64,000 nucleotides of DNA from Paenibacillus sp. FSL K6-0276 (lineage in GTDB: Bacteria > Bacillota > Bacilli > Paenibacillales > Paenibacillaceae), in contig NZ_CP150276.1 of NCBI RefSeq assembly GCF_037977235.1, positions 3,162,001 to 3,226,000 on the forward strand. Reading direction: 5' to 3'. A program made the position numbers and the translations under genes. The notes under the pieces were generated by a model. That model had not been told where the DNA came from. It did not search any database and saw only the letters and a list, made by a program, of their open reading frames with translations. Shown here one piece after another: positions 8,201 through 52,084 of this stretch; the stretch's first letter is position 1; each line of letters starts with the position of its first letter.

Positions 8201-8325
8201 CCTCTTATAGGAATCTTCTAGATACTATTCTCCTTCCGCCCCATTTTTATACAGCTTTTGGAACAGCAGGAAAGGCTAAAACGACGCAAGCGGGATAAAA
8301 TGTTGTTATGGGGTCCGAACATAAC

Positions 8326-8351
8326 AAAACGCCCACAGAAGCGGACGTTTT
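8326..8351 (-). terminator. Terminator-like hairpin after helicase operon
   Basis: AAAACG-C-CC then an eight-base loop then GG-A-CGTTTT, downstream of the helicase stop on the minus strand. The stem and about 60 flanking bases resemble the hairpin at 4097-4122. The T tract is weak. Confidence 0.55.
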
Positions 8352-8375
8352 GATTTAAAATATATTTCCGATTAT

Positions 8376-10574
8376 TTACTGAGGCTGACGCCACTGTTTC
8401 AGCACTTCTATAAGACCGGGAACATCTAATCCATCCAAAGAAAATGCTTTGCGAAGTAGCTCGTGAGGAATAAACTCGTCATACTTTCCGAGATAGGGCG
8501 CTTCATCCGGAGATAGCAGTGTTAGAGGATCTGTGGCAGCCATGCTTTCAGCGATAATCTCCGCTTCCAGCATTTCTGCATCTGCCTTACCGGCAACGAC
8601 CATATAATAGGGTTCCATAGGTACAATAGAACGTAGTCCCAGTGAACTCTTTAAGTTATTCTTGAGAAGGCGCTCCAGCGTGCGGAATTGCCGACTACCC
8701 GCCCACGGTAGGATAAACATCGAATCTCCACCTGCTGGCATAACGGAGCGTTCAAGCATTCCACTTTCCTTCGCTAAACGACGGGCTCTTTCAAGCCGCG
8801 CTGCCGCACTCGGAGCTAAATACGGATACAAGGCAGTTGCGCCTAAGACTTCACGTATTTTGGTCATAATTCGTGTATGAACATCCCCACCCGCTCCAAG
8901 CCATAACGTATCCACTTTACCGCGTGAGGTTTTCACATAAACTGCTTTATGGCGATTATCGACTTCTTCTACCTTCCAAAGCTTCCCCGCCAGAGTGAAG
9001 CAGTAGCCAGGAGGTGGTACCGTTGTAATCGAACCGATCTCTTCAGTCCCGTTATAGACAACATGCTCTTCATCGTCTTTGAAGACTGCGTAAAAGCGGA
9101 AGTTGTTCACGATCTTCTCCCCCGCCATCCCGATAATCAAGCTACCTTCATCCATCTTCTCGACTTGTCCCATAGCCAGCATATAAGTCATGAAGATATC
9201 GTAGTCCGTAGGATCTATGCCATTAAAGGAAGGTAAGCTCAGAACAGCTTCCTTTAATTCCTCCGGCTCCGCCTCCCCCATACTCTTCAATATGCTCATC
9301 GTCTGATGGTATAGCAGCCCAACTGGCAGCTGGCGCACCACCTGTGGTTCAACCCACTTCTCGCGTACATATAGCTCTATAACCGCTATCGCTCGCAGCA
9401 GCGTCCAAGGCATCCGAGCCGGAAGCTGCGCTTCCTCATCCTCTTCCTCGGGCGTGACAAAGATCATCTCGGATGCGGCGTCACCGCGCCTGCCCGAGCG
9501 ACCCAGTCGCTGCACAAAGCTTGCGCAGCTATAAGGTGCGCCGACCTGGAGCACTCGCTCCAGCTCTCCTAGATCAATGCCCAGCTCCAGCGTCAATGTC
9601 GCTGCCGCAACTGCAGGTCCGGAACCTTGCCGCAGCGCGGCTTCCGTCTCTTCGCGGAGCATCGCGGAGATACTGCCATGGTGAACGTGAAAGACATCCC
9701 GTTCCCCACGCTTCGCGGCCGTTCTCCGCAGCTCAAGGGTCGCCGTCTCCGCATCCGAGCGGCTGTTCGTGAAGATCAACGCTTTCTTAAGATGCGTGTG
9801 ATCATAAATGAAATCGTAGTAAGACTGCTTCGCGCGTTCTAAATGCTCCGCCTGCACTTCGTCCCGTGCATCTGGAAAAGAGAAATGCTCCACACTTAAA
9901 CGGAGCTTACGCCCGCCTTGTGGAGCGGAGACTTCAACGCTCTCCCGCGTGCCTGCTGCCAGCCACTCCGTTACGGAGGCATAGTCACTAAGCGTGGCCG
10001 ATAGACCGATTCTGCGCGGTTGGCATCCCGCCATTCGGGAGATTCTCGCTAGTTGACTCAAGACCTGAATCCCTCGATCAGCGCCCATAAAGGCATGCAC
10101 CTCGTCAATAACAATGAAACGTAGATCATGGAACAGCGCTGGAATGGCATTCGGGCGATTCATCAATAGTCCTTCAAGGGATTCAGGGGTAATCTGTAGC
10201 ACGCCGGAAGGATTCTGCACGAGTTTGGTTTTATCGGCTTGCGGAACATCACCATGCCAATGCCACACCGGAATGTTGCCTTCACGGAGTAAATCGTTCA
10301 GCCGTGTAAATTGATCGTTGATCAGTGCCTTCAATGGTGCGATATACAGAATCCCCACTGAATCGGAAGGACGTTCATACAGCTCGGTAAGCGCCGGAAA
10401 AAAAGCTGCCTCTGTCTTGCCAGAAGCTGTACCCGAAGCAATCAGTAAGTGATGCGGCGTATCAAACAGAACACGGCAGGCATCCACCTGCGCCTCGCGC
10501 AGGGTCTCCCAGCGGTTCTTATAAATGAATTCTTTAATAAATGGAGCCAGCCTATAAAACGGATTATCACTCAT
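8376..10574 (-). CDS. Lhr-type DEAD/DEAH-box SF2 helicase
   Basis: A 732-residue helicase. Motif I is SGTASGKT (about 47-54), Ia PLKALINDQ (80-88), motif II DEVH (157-160), motif III SAT (192-194) and motif VI QRLGRSGRRG near 355-365. The VIDEVHAFMGADRG and LGRSGRR signatures are those of Lhr-core helicases rather than RecQ or RecG. After the helicase core, residues 430-730 hold an Lhr-like winged-helix/core region without a recognised nuclease. The gene overlaps the upstream ATPase by 4 bases (ATGA), so the two are co-translated. It is much shorter than E. coli Lhr (about 1,500) and resembles Lhr-core and BREX-associated helicases (BrxHI type). Role unknown: anti-phage defence or DNA repair are both possible. 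Confidence 0.85.
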   Translation of the reverse strand: MSDNPFYRLAPFIKEFIYKNRWETLREAQVDACRVLFDTPHHLLIASGTASGKTEAAFFPALTELYERPSDSVGILYIAPLKALINDQFTRLNDLLREGNIPVWHWHGDVPQADKTKLVQNPSGVLQITPESLEGLLMNRPNAIPALFHDLRFIVIDEVHAFMGADRGIQVLSQLARISRMAGCQPRRIGLSATLSDYASVTEWLAAGTRESVEVSAPQGGRKLRLSVEHFSFPDARDEVQAEHLERAKQSYYDFIYDHTHLKKALIFTNSRSDAETATLELRRTAAKRGERDVFHVHHGSISAMLREETEAALRQGSGPAVAAATLTLELGIDLGELERVLQVGAPYSCASFVQRLGRSGRRGDAASEMIFVTPEEEDEEAQLPARMPWTLLRAIAVIELYVREKWVEPQVVRQLPVGLLYHQTMSILKSMGEAEPEELKEAVLSLPSFNGIDPTDYDIFMTYMLAMGQVEKMDEGSLIIGMAGEKIVNNFRFYAVFKDDEEHVVYNGTEEIGSITTVPPPGYCFTLAGKLWKVEEVDNRHKAVYVKTSRGKVDTLWLGAGGDVHTRIMTKIREVLGATALYPYLAPSAAARLERARRLAKESGMLERSVMPAGGDSMFILPWAGSRQFRTLERLLKNNLKSSLGLRSIVPMEPYYMVVAGKADAEMLEAEIIAESMAATDPLTLLSPDEAPYLGKYDEFIPHELLRKAFSLDGLDVPGLIEVLKQWRQPQ

Positions 10575-11890
10575 AATTCAAACTCCGCCAGGAACCCATC
10601 CAGCTCGTTTTGTTCTGTCTCAACAGGTTTAGAGGTCCGTTCACCTACTAGCTTCTCGAATGAGATCTCCGGATGCTGGTGCAGTGTGTGTAGCAGATCC
10701 ATGAAATCTCGAACCACCTCGCGCGGAGTCAAGAGTTCGTCAGCCCCTAATCTCCCTACGGCTTCTTCCATAAAATGAACCAATTGTTCCTGCGTTAACT
10801 GTGCTTCATAACCATAATGAAGAGCATGGATATCTCTAAGCTTTTGTAAAAGAACCAGAATCTCTTCGTGTGAGAGCATGTCCAGCGCAATGATAGGTCC
10901 AGTGTAATTATTCAGACCCGCCGCACCATATCGTCCTGCAACTAATCTAGAACGCAGTGCCTCATAGCTAAATAACCCACGCCTTCCATCCTCCACAAAT
11001 TGCGGAGTACCTCCTATAAAAATTCCTAAGCTTTCTGCCTTGCCTTGCATTGTATCGTTGAACATCGTAAGCAGTTTCTCATAGTTACTCTGACGTGAGA
11101 TGCTGTTCGTGATTTTGTAGAGATTGACGCCTTCGTCTATAAACAGTAGCAGTCCCTTATAACCAATAGCAGAAGTGAATTCCGCCCACAGCTTCATATA
11201 ATCATACCAATTGTCATCATCAATAATCACGCCTACACCGAGTGCTTTTCGTGCTTCCGTTCGAGTGGCGAATTCACCTCTTAGCCAGCGAAGAGAATCC
11301 TGCTTCAATTCATCGTCAGCGAGCTTATGTGCATTCCAATAAGAAGCCAGCACTTTGGCAAAATCAAATCCATGTACCAAACCGCGCATTTCAGAGGCTA
11401 CAGCATAGATTCGTTTCTCTACTTCGTCACCAAGCTGGGGGTGATCAGGGCCGTATTCATTCTCCTGCATCACTGACTGCTGAAGCGTAATGATCCATTT
11501 TTGTAGTATAATCTCTAGTGCTCCTCCATCTGGACGCGTCCGGGTAGATAAATGACTCATCAGCTCACGGTAAGTTGCGAGACCTTGTCCTTTCGTTCCC
11601 ACTAATCTTCGTTCAGGGGATAGATCAGCATCTGCTACAACAAAATCACGGTCCATTGCATAATTACGGATCATCTGCAGAAGAAAGCTTTTTCCGCTAC
11701 CGAATTTTCCTGTAATCAGCTTAAAAGCAGCTCCACCCTCCGCAATGTTGTCCATATCTCTCAATATAGCTTCAATCTCTGGCCGGCGGCCGACAGCTAT
11801 ATGCTCTAGTCCGATACGCGGAACCACACCGGCTGTCAGTGAATTGACTAGCGCTGTCGTCATGCGTTTGGGTATTTTTAATGCACTCAT
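10571..11890 (-). CDS. BrxD-like (DUF2791-type) P-loop ATP-binding protein
   Basis: A 439-residue AAA-type ATPase: Walker A GKFGSGKS (about residues 61-68), Walker B LLLFIDEG (about 247-254), and a sensor-like GIFIGGTP near 290. The N-terminal VGRRPEI followed by the Walker A is the layout of BREX BrxD/DUF2791 proteins. An SD GAGGTG sits 8 bases before ATG 11890; TTG at 11893 adds one residue. It lies between the TerB-domain gene (about 15 bases upstream) and the helicase (4-base overlap), implying one complex or pathway. BREX genes such as brxC, pglX and pglZ are absent nearby, so this is not a BREX locus. Confidence 0.8.
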   Translation of the reverse strand: MSALKIPKRMTTALVNSLTAGVVPRIGLEHIAVGRRPEIEAILRDMDNIAEGGAAFKLITGKFGSGKSFLLQMIRNYAMDRDFVVADADLSPERRLVGTKGQGLATYRELMSHLSTRTRPDGGALEIILQKWIITLQQSVMQENEYGPDHPQLGDEVEKRIYAVASEMRGLVHGFDFAKVLASYWNAHKLADDELKQDSLRWLRGEFATRTEARKALGVGVIIDDDNWYDYMKLWAEFTSAIGYKGLLLFIDEGVNLYKITNSISRQSNYEKLLTMFNDTMQGKAESLGIFIGGTPQFVEDGRRGLFSYEALRSRLVAGRYGAAGLNNYTGPIIALDMLSHEEILVLLQKLRDIHALHYGYEAQLTQEQLVHFMEEAVGRLGADELLTPREVVRDFMDLLHTLHQHPEISFEKLVGERTSKPVETEQNELDGFLAEFEL

Positions 11891-11905
11891 CAAAAGTTCA
11901 CCTCA

Positions 11906-13474
11906 TTAAATATTAAGCAGATTAGTTGTATATTCCTCTGCTATTTCTTCTCCGTCTATGATCAAGTCACCGAGAATGTCCATTGCGATTTCATTAATCT
12001 CGTCAATCAAGAGCTCTGACATCGTGCCGTTTGCAGCAGCTAGCTTCTGCAGTGCTTGTCTTCCGTCCTCTTTCAAAAGAGCAAGCAGAGCTCCTCGTTG
12101 TAGTGGACTTATAGCACTTGCAAACTGCTCCCACTCCGTCCCAACGTTTGTAGCATGAACTTCTTCAATTGCTGATTCAGGCTCAAGAGATTCAATAGGA
12201 TTAATGCCTTCTTTTACTGGCTTGGGTTCCTCAGTAATGACTTCGGCCTCGCTATCCTCAAGTTCGTCCATCTCATTCATATCCTCAACCGTAAGCATGG
12301 TTCGGACAATCTCGGAATCACTCTGCAGACGTTCTAGCTTCTCACGATCAATAACCACTGCCGGACCCTTGTCTTCCTGTTTCTCTTTCTCAAACTCCCG
12401 CTTCAGGAAACGAGTGATTAGGTTGTCCATATCGGCATCTACGTTAACCCCTTTGAGTCGACCTCGATATCCCAGCAGTTCCCGTAGTTTATTCTCAGTC
12501 AAACGGAACAGCCTTGTAATCAAACTACGAAGCGGTGGAGATTTACTGATACGCACAACTGGTATAAGTACAGAATAGCCATATAGCGAAATATCATATA
12601 CGGCACTTCGGAATAAATAACGCTCCCGCATCACAGATGGTCCTGGTGGGAACATTTCGACCAAATTTGAGCCATGTCTCCGGGTGACATAAGCGTTGAT
12701 TAATGCCACTACCTGCGGGATGTATTGTTCGAGGGCATCTTTACCTTCTCCCATGTAGAACTTGGATTTACTAATATCGTAGTCCGACATTGCTGTTAAT
12801 ACCGTAAAGGTTAGCTGATCAGGAGCTATAGTAAGACATCGCATTAACTCTAGTTCTGCCAGATCTCCAGCAAGGCCACGTGAACGAGCAACGATTAGTG
12901 AAAGAGGCACATCCAAATGATGAACAAACGAGAAGTCCGCGATCCAACCACCTAAATATTGATCCAGACGTTTGTAACTCTCTCGATAAGCTTCCCAGAT
13001 TTGACTGAGCTGCCTATAGCCATCATAAGGATCTTCCCAGCCTACACCATTAATAAGCTCATATACGTGCAGAAAAATATATGAAAGATCCGCCTTCGGA
13101 TATCTACCATGTCTAACTTCATTACGCCAATAAAAATACCATCTACTTTGTGTGCCTGTCATATGGCCATAGGTAGGCCAGTAGCTCTTAAAAGGAACAA
13201 ATAGCGCTGAATCCTCGGTTTTGTGTTCCAATTCCTTCGCTCTAGTTACGAACTGTCCTTCGGTTGTTGTCACAGGCTCCGGTGTTTCCGTCTCCGAATC
13301 CCAAAGCTGTAACTGTAAAGAAGGTTCAGTGGACGCCTTAGGCTTTCCTATACTCGCAGATGATGACTTGGGTAGCTCAGGTTCAGGGGAATTTCGCGGG
13401 GGAATAGGAATATTTGCTTCCGTGCTTTCCCAGACTAATTCCGTGAAATGAGGCTGCTTACTATCCTTACTCAT
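11906..13474 (-). CDS. TerB-N / TerB-C domain protein
   Basis: A 522-residue soluble protein and first gene of the operon. Residues 1-90 are a Pro/Ser/Thr/Glu-rich, probably disordered tail. Residues 95-190 match the TerB_N domain (YFYWRNEVRHGRYPKADLSY, then IFLHVYELING). A charged stretch rich in Glu (about 355-440) leads to a TerB_C-like C-terminus (about 425-522) with IDEINEIAMDILGDLIIDG. TerB-family modules occur in tellurite-resistance and predicted phage-response gene networks. No classical central TerB metal-binding domain was recognised. GGAGCG precedes the ATG at 13474. Function is not established; the neighbours suggest a scaffold for the ATPase and helicase. Confidence 0.75.
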   Translation of the reverse strand: MSKDSKQPHFTELVWESTEANIPIPPRNSPEPELPKSSSASIGKPKASTEPSLQLQLWDSETETPEPVTTTEGQFVTRAKELEHKTEDSALFVPFKSYWPTYGHMTGTQSRWYFYWRNEVRHGRYPKADLSYIFLHVYELINGVGWEDPYDGYRQLSQIWEAYRESYKRLDQYLGGWIADFSFVHHLDVPLSLIVARSRGLAGDLAELELMRCLTIAPDQLTFTVLTAMSDYDISKSKFYMGEGKDALEQYIPQVVALINAYVTRRHGSNLVEMFPPGPSVMRERYLFRSAVYDISLYGYSVLIPVVRISKSPPLRSLITRLFRLTENKLRELLGYRGRLKGVNVDADMDNLITRFLKREFEKEKQEDKGPAVVIDREKLERLQSDSEIVRTMLTVEDMNEMDELEDSEAEVITEEPKPVKEGINPIESLEPESAIEEVHATNVGTEWEQFASAISPLQRGALLALLKEDGRQALQKLAAANGTMSELLIDEINEIAMDILGDLIIDGEEIAEEYTTNLLNI

Positions 13475-13515
13475 GTTCGATCGCTCCGTTCTTATAAAAG
13501 AAGGACTAATGTAAA

Positions 13516-13552
13516 AAAACGGTCCTGTTCACAACTGTGAAGGAACCGTTTT
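13516..13552 (-). terminator. Rho-independent terminator of niaP
   Basis: AAAACGGT...TTCACA-AC-TGTGAA...ACCGTTTT forms a long hairpin, and on the minus strand it is followed by a run of seven T. It closes the niaP transcript just before the TerB operon begins. Confidence 0.85.
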
Positions 13553-13615
13553 GTTCTTAATAAATTTTAGCATTGTTAATAGATTAACATCAAGTATGTA
13601 ATGAAGAATTATCCT

Positions 13616-26026: not shown

Positions 26027-27317
26027 TTACAATAGCGTTTTAAGTCCATGTTGTAAGGCGATATATTTAACCTCAGATAATGAACCTATCCATCTTTTGC
26101 GTTGTCTCTTCTTTGCATACCACCGTGTTAACCGCCCCAAAATATACCAGTCTAGTTTTGCTAACTTCTTTTGGCTATAGTTCGTGTAGTAATAATTTCT
26201 CCATCCTTGAATCTTGGGATTGAGCCATTCTACATGTTCCTCGAACGATCTTGAACGCATGCTCGGCGGTGCCAATCTTTCTTTGACCACCTCACGAATA
26301 CGTTCCTCTGCCTTCTGTGTTAGCCACTGCTGCGTGGTGTAGTACACCTTACCTTGGGATGTTTCTGCTTTGGTTTTCCGGTGGTGCATGCCTAAGAAAT
26401 CGAATCCTTCGTTTCCTGTCCACAATCCTACAATGCGAGTTTTGGTCGGGTGTAGGGTCAACTCCAGACGTTCCATAATCGTACGTATAAGCTTATACGC
26501 ATGTTCTGCGTCCTTTTTGGTTTTGCAAACCACTACAAAGTCGTCTGCATACCTCGTGAGTTCTCCTATTCCTTTTCCGTGTTTCTCCCAGAGTTGGTCG
26601 AAGTAATTTAGATAGATATTCGCAAGGAGCGGTGAAATCACTCCTCCTTGCGGTGTCCCTAAATCCGAACGTCTTACCGTTCCTTCTTCCAAAACTCCTG
26701 CACTCAGCCACTTTCGTATTATTTTAAGTATCCGCCTGTCATTGATACGCATCTGTACCAATTTCATTAGCTTCTCTTGATTAATATTGTCGAAGTAGCC
26801 TTGGATATCGACGTCGACTACCCAATTTCCTTTACGGTTGCAGGCTTTTCGGATTCTATCCAACGCACCTTTAGCACTTCGTTTCGGACGAAATCCGAAG
26901 GATACTTCCTCAAAGTCTGCTTCAAAGATGGGCTCAATCACGAGTTTGGTTGCCATCTGTATGACTCGATCGCGTACGGTGGGTATACCCAGTGGCCTTT
27001 GCTTCCCGTCTTTCTTCGGGATATAGTGTCTCCGTACAGGTTGTGGATGGTAGTTGCCTTCTTTGAGCTCTCGCTCACATGCCTTGAGAAACGGTGTTTC
27101 TCCTTGTTCCTCAATATCTGCTAGCGTCACCGCATCTATTCCTGCGGCACCCTTATTGGCTTTCACTCGTTTCCACGCTTCACAGTACATCCCACCGATA
27201 AATCTTGTCATACAACGCATGGAATTTACGCTTTTTGTTCTCCTTGGCCGCATGACCTAGCTTTTCTTGGAGTTGTTGAACTTTTTCCTTTGGTGTCGTT
27301 AGCCCTTTGGCATTCAC
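26027..27317 (-). pseudogene. Group II intron reverse transcriptase/maturase 1, frameshifted near N-terminus
   Basis: The gene begins at GTG 27317 behind GGAGGAGGT and reads VNAKGLTTPKEKVQQLQEKL then ...KIYRWDVL before a TGA at 27180-27182. The remaining protein continues in another frame from [17 protein letters not shown] to the end. Loss of two bases (expected CTG TAT GAA; seen CTG TGA A) explains the break. The RT core is intact: [34 protein letters not shown] and catalytic RYADDFVVV, then a maturase X domain with FLGMHH; no HNH endonuclease follows. The 408-codon downstream frame has an ATG at 27253 with no clear SD, so activity is doubtful. Confidence 0.82.
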
Positions 27318-50212: not shown

Positions 50213-52084
50213 ATCGAGTAGGAAGGGGCGGTAAGCCCCTGTCCTCTCACACCACCGTACCTGCGGGTCCGCATACGGCGGTTCCAAAAGGTTAACAAAG
50301 TTCCAGATAACATGAAAGCAAACTTTTCAGCCCTTTCGCTTCCCAATAGGAAGTCGGAAGGGCATTATTCGTGTTCCGGGACATTTCCCATGCGCCTCGC
50401 CTCGAGTTGGCCATCTTAAAACAAGCCCACTCTGGAACCCCTAGTGCCCGGAGTTCTCGGATTCGTGTGCGCACTCGTTTCCATTGCTTCCACAAGCACA
50501 TTCGGAGTCTTCTCCGTATCCACTGGTCCAGCCTTTGGAGATGCGTCTTTGCCGAAGCTAGACGATAATAGCCCAGCCACCCCATCAGATAGCGGTTCAG
50601 TCGGCCAATCCGTTCTTCCATTGAAATGGACCATGTTCGGTTCGTTAGCTCGCGAATCCGTTCTTTAAATGCTAAGAGGCTCTTCGGTGCTATTCGAATT
50701 GTCGCCTGTTTCTGACTCAAGAAACTGAACCCTAAGAACTTCCGGTGCCAAGGTCTGGCCACCGCGCTTTTCTCCCGGTTCACTTTCAGTTTCAGCTTTC
50801 CTTCTACAAACCGACTTACCGATTCCATGACGCGTTCGCCTGCTCGCTACAAAGATATTACAGTCGTCCGCATAGCGTACAAATCGCAGCCCTCGTCCAC
50901 TCAATTCCTTATCCAAATCATCTAGCAAAATGTTCGCCAAGAGCGGACTGAGCGGACCACCTTGTGGCGTTCCTTCCCAGCTACGCTCTCGTTTTCCTTT
51001 CACCATGACTCCGGCGTTCAGATAGGCACGGATCAGTGTCAGTACTCTTTTGTCCATCACCTTCCGTGCGACTCTTGCCATCAGCATGTCGTGATTCACC
51101 TGGTCAAAGAATTTCTCCAGATCCAGGTCTACCACCCATCTAAGACCGCTTTGGATATATCTTTGGGCTTGTTTGACTGCATCATGCGCACTCTTCCCTG
51201 GGCGAAAGCCGTAGCTATACCAAGAAAATTGCGCGTCAAAGATCGGGTTCATGACTTGTAGAAGGGCTTGCTGGAGAAATCGGTCCATTACAGTCGGGAT
51301 GCCTAGCAGCCGTACACCGCCTCCGGGTTTGGGGATTTCCACCCGTTTGACTGGCGCAGGTCTATAGGCGCCCGCTAGAAGCTCGGCTTTCACCGTTTCC
51401 CAATGTGTTTTCAAGTAAGCTTGTAGATTCGCTACCGTTACATTGTCCACTCCGGGTGCTCCTCCGTTTTGCACCACTCGTTTGTAGGCGAGCCGAAGGT
51501 TATCTCCTTCGAGCATTCGCTCCAGCAAGTTGTTCTGGTCTTCGCGAGAGGGAGGGGCGACTTGTGCCGACGAAGAACTCGGCGCTCCGGCATACCCTAA
51601 CGGCTTCACCGCTTCTCTTTGCCGCAAGCTCTCTTGCGAGATATTCTGCTGTCGTTGCTCTTCCTGCGAACGCATCGTTTCCTCTCTCCTTTCGGTTCAG
51701 CCCTTCCGTAAACTGTTGCAACAGCTTACGTACTATGGCCTCTGCTGACTCCTGCCAGTTCAGCGCAGCCTCTCGGCTACGGTTACAAGTTTTTTTCCTT
51801 GCTTACCTGACAGGCCTCCCCAGATAAGAACGTCATCTGTCTGCCCGCGACCACTGGAGTTTACCGCGTCCGCCCTTGGCGGCTCTGGATTTCGTCATGT
51901 TTGGGTGACTCATCCGACGGACACAGCCTCAAATCCAGTTCGTGTACCTTGGCCCGTGCTTTTGCCTCCGGCTTCCTTCAGATTCCACCTCACGGTGGAC
52001 ACCCTTGCCCTTGGCTAACGGTAGGCGCTCGCCAGCCCCCGTTCGGGACTTTCACCCTAAAGATGACGCCCATGCTGGGCGTAC
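50213..52084 (-). mobile_element. Group II intron 2 (IIC-like)
   Basis: About 1.87 kb on the minus strand. The 5' end GTACGCCCAGCATGGGCG followed by GGGTGAAAGTCCCGAAC, and AAGGGTGTC...GTGGAATCTGAAGGAAGC, resemble the well-known IIC intron of Oceanobacillus. Domain V lies near 50235-50285 (GGAACCGCCGTATG...GGTACGGTGGTGTG), and domain VI ends CCTACTCGAT at about 50213. It is inserted one base after the T run of the murB terminator, the hallmark target of IIC introns. Its reverse transcriptase is frameshifted. Ends are approximate to a few bases. Confidence 0.87.
50292..51675 (-). pseudogene. Group II intron reverse transcriptase/maturase 2, frameshifted
   Basis: ATG 51675 follows GAGAGAGGAAACG. 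The first frame holds the RT core (LGIPTVMDR, YGFRPGKSAHDA, TPQGGPLSPLLANILL, RYADDCNIFVASRR) and then runs into unrelated residues. The second frame (from about 50840) continues with GERVMESVSRFVEGKL, NREKSAV, FLGFSF and the maturase X region to 50292. The break is at GCGAGCAGGCGAACG; the family sequence (SRRAGERVM) predicts two GCGAGCAG units where only one remains, an 8-base contraction. The product would lack maturase, so splicing help is doubtful. Confidence 0.85.

Follow-up and report, generated by a model that had tools for sequence, protein, structure and literature searches.

Shango is an anti-phage family made up of a TerB-like protein, an ATPase and a helicase. In Pseudomonas aeruginosa it lowers the plating of many, not all, phages by 10- to 100-fold, and a phage block is published for the PA14 copy and, as reported in the same source, for an E. 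coli copy (PMC10250203, available part). A central TerB domain is listed for the family in the accessible part of PMC10952713, and we found no published Shango mechanism in the literature. Here we describe a Shango operon, sngA-sngB-sngC, in Paenibacillus sp. FSL K6-0276. It lies in a 64-kb stretch of DNA (NZ_CP150276.1, positions 3,162,001 to 3,226,000; hereafter the window) that is part of a single 6.11-Mb contig. The family is known; the resident variant is new.

Two other described defence systems resemble the trio. In type 2 BREX the ATPase BrxD likewise adjoins an Lhr-tailed helicase, BrxHI, and the available portion of PMC12839542 calls BrxD ORC/Cdc6-like and reads it as a possible loader of BrxHI. 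Hachiman (HamAB) shares with Shango a defence helicase, which in Hachiman acts as a genome-integrity sensor, and a helicase tree places SngC with BrxHI, DruE and DpdJ in a possible clade of their own (PMC12278908, as far as its text is accessible). Hachiman differs in having its own nuclease, HamA, whereas the window trio encodes none.

A Shango operon without the TerB domain

The trio consists of three minus-strand open frames, 13474-8376, in a tight operon:

11906..13474, minus strand: sngA, 522 amino acids, with TerB_N at residues 66-267 and TerB_C at residues 361-512
10571..11893, minus strand: sngB, BrxC/BrxD-type AAA+ ATPase, 440 amino acids if counted from the listed TTG
8376..10574, minus strand: sngC, SF2 DEVH helicase with an Lhr-like C-terminal part, 732 amino acids

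The junctions, a gap of about 15 bases between sngA and sngB and a 4-base overlap of sngB with sngC, are those that an earlier note, made from the sequence alone, had described for a three-gene operon here. The likely start of sngB is the ATG at 11890, which is preceded by GAGGTGA. Pfam searches detected TerB_N (1.1e-35) and TerB_C (4e-13) in SngA, BrxC_BrxD PF10923 (7.9e-166) in SngB, and DEAD (5.4e-26) and Helicase_C (2.1e-14) in SngC, upholding the BrxD-family assignment of the ATPase and the flanking-domain assignments of SngA in the same note. The PADLOC models SngA, SngB and SngC matched at 2.5e-113, 8.8e-207 and 4.5e-240, comparable to their matches to an E. coli plasmid Shango (9.7e-105, 8.1e-186 and 4.6e-282), in which all three profiles occur in the same gene order as in the window. 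The trio shares with the E. coli and P. aeruginosa PA14 systems the same three genes, TerB_N and TerB_C, the AAA+ ATPase and the SF2 helicase; identity to the E. coli plasmid copy is about 39% for its SngB and about 31% for its SngC. We conclude from the profiles and the order of the genes that the trio is a member of the Shango family and not a new system. As such it was already known, since PADLOC names SngABC and Shango had been named and phage-tested by 2023 (PMC10250203, available part); the earlier note was right to suspect a defence link and wrong to call the system uncharacterised.

The motifs of both motors are intact, Walker A and B in SngB and the helicase motifs in SngC. The Walker residues of SngB are invariant in 27 sequences (the window and 26 others), and Walker A was detected in 91/95 SngB frames, the four misses being interrupted copies. 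The helicase motifs of SngC are intact in the window and in the 28 others compared; the DEVH-type motif, SAT and motif VI occur in 92/92 SngC frames, and a strict motif I pattern matches 79 of the 92. No solved relative of SngB was found at E 0.01. For the SngC model the nearest solved structure is mycobacterial Lhr (5v9x, E 2.2e-31, TM 0.70 by query length), in agreement with the Lhr-type helicase named in the earlier note, and the second is MrfA (6znp). Lhr and MrfA (YprA), the nearest solved folds to SngC, are repair helicases; to our knowledge neither has a BrxD-like ATPase and a TerB_N/TerB_C protein encoded alongside it.

The similarity to BREX raises the alternative that the trio is a type 2 BREX remnant or a BREX variant in which BrxD is paired with BrxHI. 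PADLOC does match SngB to BrxD (1.4e-50) and SngC to BrxHI (3.5e-124), but the Shango models are far ahead for both proteins, and the NCBIfam BrxD score of SngB is 175.6 bits against a cut-off of 350. We detected no PglZ, BrxC or BREX methylase (PglX), the partners expected of BrxD-BrxHI in type 2, among 42 window proteins scanned with PADLOC (a set that excludes reverse transcriptases and ABC-transporter ATPases), as the earlier note had observed for the neighbourhood, and PglZ has no match in the organism's own genome. We therefore rejected a BREX origin on scores and missing partners, and give it almost no credence.

The feature that sets the window apart from Shango of the E. coli type is in SngA. 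A TerB domain (PF05099) was not found in window SngA by Pfam at E up to 0.1, so of the TerB claim made earlier the flanking TerB_N and TerB_C stand and the TerB domain itself does not. PF05099 was also found in none of 85 genus SngA tested out of 95 (the 10 longest were left out; of these, L093 was tested separately and is also without it), in none of 13 SngA of Bacillota outside the family, and not in the SngA of a P. peoriae plasmid. All three domains, PF05099, TerB_N and TerB_C, were found in SngA of the E. coli plasmid, Sphingobium and Arthrobacter, and in Halocatena SngA PF05099 falls just below the cut-off (24.3 vs 24.4 bits). In the model of window SngA, residues of about 398-443 are disordered in place of the TerB domain; the linker stretch is rich in acidic residues (among 52 residues, 14 E and 3 D), and residues 444-522 resemble a winged helix. 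As PF05099 was not found, we file the trio as a TerB-less variant lineage and not as canonical Shango. By these domain searches, the central TerB domain was either lost from the SngA of resident Shango or never part of it. We read the operon as a chromosomally resident, TerB-less Shango lineage that probably has an immune role.

The operon is present throughout the genus

We surveyed 96 congeners, each at least 95% complete. SngB is present in all of them, and the complete trio, in the same order, could be recognised in 96/96, 91 by open frames and 5 by tblastn (among the latter, one SngC runs off a contig end and one SngA is in two pieces). An apparent absence of SngC in G243, G215, G075, G076 and G102 was rejected, as tblastn places SngC beside SngB in each. 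Full genus coverage is not typical here of two control families, PglZ, which is over its cut-off in 12/96 congeners (6 with E <1e-20; 22 with any match), and HsdR_N, which is found in 46/96. Beyond the genus, SngB occurs in 119/245 genomes and 9/16 genera of a family sample (counting one genome, and its genus, that matches weakly at 3.6e-6), in 186/393 genomes and 9/48 genera of an order sample (1e-30), and in 22/398 genomes of a phylum sample at 1e-80, 7 of them from the family. Among 14 control genomes, which include B. subtilis, SngB gave a match in Deinobacterium only. The neighbourhood survey proposed in the earlier note finds the trio adjacent across the genus and in other genera of the family. 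The literature, including the available parts of PMC12453123 and PMC12715929, yielded no account of a Shango fixed in Paenibacillus; most subscription papers lay outside the search.

The Paenibacillus trio is found in all congeners examined, rather than in islands. Judged by their translations, the genes next to it in the window are for spore germination, an MFS transporter, a DUF1836 protein and a CBS-domain protein. The MFS neighbour stands on the sngA side at 52/96 loci; the remaining loci have other settings, in which groups of genomes share the same neighbours. We saw no defence island in the window, which bears out the non-island setting described earlier. PADLOC searches of 44 further window proteins gave reverse-transcriptase matches (among the best 25 of 96 families, two members each), which we take to be the window's two reverse transcriptases, and at 1e-10 the set of 42 proteins gave only QueC and mad2 (1.3e-12), one member each; we read the QueC match as part of an ordinary queuosine gene set. 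Neighbours in the other genomes were compared by clustering only, so islands at those loci are possible.

Recent acquisition, as an ordinary mobile Shango like the enterobacterial plasmid copies, would be a different explanation for the operon. SngB-like genes are indeed mobile, with matches in 692 plasmid records, of which 542 are rated conjugative, although the matches were not individually confirmed as Shango and the weakest one listed is BREX-like. Within the family, too, there are mobile-looking copies, on the P. peoriae plasmid and as a second copy in G189. Against this, the six nearest matches of window SngB are 96-99% identical to it and all lie between the same neighbours, whereas the listed plasmid SngB of other genera are about 38-45% identical to it and the BREX-like match 24%; nor was an integrase or transposase seen beside the trio among the listed frames, inspected by eye. 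We consider recent acquisition highly improbable.

A tree of SngB and SngC supports residence. The 40 family copies form one clade (support 99), outside which lie the P. peoriae plasmid copy and other Bacillota, and the gyrB and SngB+SngC trees agree on the group made up of the 14 genus members around the window. Across 210 genus pairs, mean pairwise identity is 0.52 for SngA, 0.81 for SngB, 0.82 for SngC and 0.90 for GyrB, and the rank correlation with GyrB identity is 0.71, 0.79 and 0.87 for SngA, SngB and SngC, respectively.

Selection differs between the motors and SngA

We compared eight congeners with the window's genome, using simple Nei-Gojobori counts of nonsynonymous and synonymous substitution rates (dN/dS) for pairs with a computable dS, which is near or past saturation in the farther pairs. 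The dN/dS values were 0.010-0.022 for SngB and 0.011-0.037 for SngC, against 0.015-0.035 for gyrB. SngA, at 0.106-0.183, lies above every neighbour compared (gerA 0.083-0.128, Trk 0.091-0.095, DUF1836 0.039-0.101, hlyC 0.032-0.063). We conclude that, by these counts, SngB and SngC are under purifying selection like that on gyrB, and SngA under selection about 5 to 18 times looser.

Upstream region and SOS-type boxes

Three further features flank the genes:

13564..13593, minus strand: promoter-like site, TTGATG-18-TAAAAT, with TG ahead of the second hexamer; 9/12 matches
13510..13553, minus strand: hairpin with a T run, sequence-conserved, between the promoter-like site and sngA
8325..8352, minus strand: intrinsic-terminator-like stem behind sngC

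The promoter-like site is conserved among aligned relatives (footprint of 18 genomes), and such sites are rarer in the region than in shuffles (4 vs a mean of 7.9). The hairpin pattern, with up to 3 substitutions, was detected in 32/33 genomes with the MFS gene within 250 bases of sngA and in 0/62 others; relaxing the pattern by one further substitution brings in weak matches from other genomes. In the organism's own genome the core of the hairpin is found once. The hairpin may be the terminator of the MFS gene or a leader attenuator. A structured RNA was rejected: the conservation is of sequence only, with no covariation, no double-sided compensations in 32 sequences and no Rfam family above its gathering score.

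An SOS-type box of the form SGAAYRNRYGTTCS lies upstream of sngA in 14/95 congeners, several times directly behind a TATAAT-like element, compared with 6/1136 other upstream regions; five of those six belong to the divergent neighbour and hold the same sites, and the sixth precedes the broken sngA of G097. A looser pattern matches 17/95 sngA upstreams and 8/1136 others. By sequence type the 14 boxes fall into two groups (10 and 4 genomes) and are not 14 events. The recA genes of the window's genome and of G033 (RecA recognised from its translation) have CGAATGTATGTTCG. In other genera, CGAAAATATGTTCG was counted in 2/19 sngA upstreams, the near-palindromes of G163 and G222, out of six matched by a one-substitution pattern. 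The sequence CAAACGAACGTTCY, in 10 further genomes, was set aside as insufficiently box-like. No such LexA (SOS) box was found before sngA in the window, where the best match in G000 has 5 mismatches, or in its nearest relatives, and a match over the window's start codon was discarded. Genome-wide, the box pattern gives 7 to 14 matches per genome against 16 to 24 for a reversed control in 4/4 genomes. Because it is rarer than the control, the box alone proves nothing, and weight falls on its position and on recA. An SOS link of sngA would apply to some lineages at most.

Variant and neighbouring elements

Shango copies elsewhere differ in architecture. In a separate Bacillota branch, 4/5 SngA (L288, L290, L291, L112), among them that of the second copy in G189, have an N-terminal TM2 membrane domain, which suggests a membrane-anchored form. 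In the family genus g24 (L100, L101, L102, L103, L104), SngA proteins are about 1200-1470 amino acids long and SngB is C-terminally extended in some members; the extra parts have no Pfam match among those scanned. SngB is also longer at its C terminus in G243 and G215, and the G243 extension has no Pfam match. An Arthrobacter plasmid SngC (L254:6406-9318) is fused to a C-terminal DEDDh exonuclease at residues of about 769-937. This fusion hints at strand degradation after unwinding and is a possible clue to the effector step of Shango. The P. peoriae plasmid Shango (L255:1-13305), which lies outside the resident clade, has a gene annotated as phospholipase-D-like two genes on.

In nine of ten genomes with gyrB near the contig start (G000 and nine relatives), the trio lies at 0.51-0.55 along the contig, roughly opposite the origin; the exception is G062, at 0.07. 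We interpret the two reverse-transcriptase-like genes of the window (26027-27253, and 50665-51675 with 50292-50828) as group II intron maturases; the second seems to be divided between two frames.

Discussion

The domains of the resident trio suggest how it may work. SngB, the AAA+ ATPase, would most likely load or license SngC, the Lhr-like SF2 translocase, on an abnormal DNA structure, and SngA, with its helical TerB_N part, acidic linker and C-terminal part like a DNA-binding winged helix, would most likely recruit or gate the SngB-SngC pair. Such a machine would act on replicating or damaged DNA and stop phage DNA replication; in Paenibacillus it is always present instead of being acquired with an island. 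We infer the loading of SngC by SngB, the DNA target and the anti-phage effect of the window copy, and the helicase-loading guess of the earlier note was a fair one.

Several results weigh against an immune role for a resident lineage. We know of no phage test of any Paenibacillus copy. Presence in all congeners is unusual for an immune system and fits core repair too, and the gyrB-like selection on SngB and SngC is likewise unusual for immunity and fits core repair. Strong constraint alone does not set the trio apart, as the MFS neighbour (dN/dS 0.014-0.022) is as constrained as SngB. For SngA, the proposed gate, sequence comparison at E 0.1 found no solved relative, and the best Foldseek E value is 0.54. 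Genes are broken in 5/96 congeners, sngB in G009, G020, G034 and G098 and sngA in G097, so the trio is not essential; the interruptions may reflect assembly error or contamination (rated at 10% in G097 and 7% in G098). Inheritance is also not strictly vertical, because 7/21 genus members that form one gyrB group (support 95) are split in the SngB+SngC tree: G014 joins g23, and G006, G010, G030 and G062 join g31 and G321, five members thus grouping with other genera, while G016 stands alone with G096. The correlations with GyrB identity drop to 0.40 for SngA, 0.58 for SngB and 0.50 for SngC over 703 pairs from 38 family genomes. On the evidence of the trees and identities, the history of the trio is one of old residence with exchange inside the family and not of pure descent.

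The strongest alternative is that the trio is a domesticated or ancestral DNA-maintenance machine, induced by DNA damage or acting on it, for which immunity is not the main job. Its presence in all 96 congeners, the gyrB-like selection on two of its three genes, the repair helicases nearest to SngC, the lack of a BREX or other clear defence partner among the window proteins scanned, and the boxes before sngA in some congeners together with that of recA all point in this direction. SngA speaks for immunity, as its faster evolution is more immune-like. The boxes are missing from the window and its nearest relatives, come from two sequence groups and follow a pattern rarer than its control; a broken gene in some congeners, exchange within the family and possible islands at other loci also argue against a maintenance machine. 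The earlier note had held a core repair role equally open, and that role is strengthened here, not settled; as the main job of the trio, maintenance is a real possibility that we hold only tentatively.

The immune and the mainly maintenance readings are not mutually exclusive. A defence system may have become, or may have begun as, a core DNA-maintenance operon whose substrate is replication DNA that is damaged or stalled; phage defence would then be a by-product. This would accommodate a genus-wide TerB-less Shango, two motors under gyrase-like selection and an SOS link in some lineages, although we regard it as rather doubtful.

The preferred reading, a resident TerB-less Shango lineage with an immune role, has a practical side: the census suggests that defence-finding tools that count Shango would call one in most Paenibacillus genomes. 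In a culturable genus, a lineage present genus-wide also allows deletion to be used to ask what such ATPase-helicase pairs do to a cell's own DNA, and Paenibacillus Shango offers a way to test where immunity ends and repair begins.

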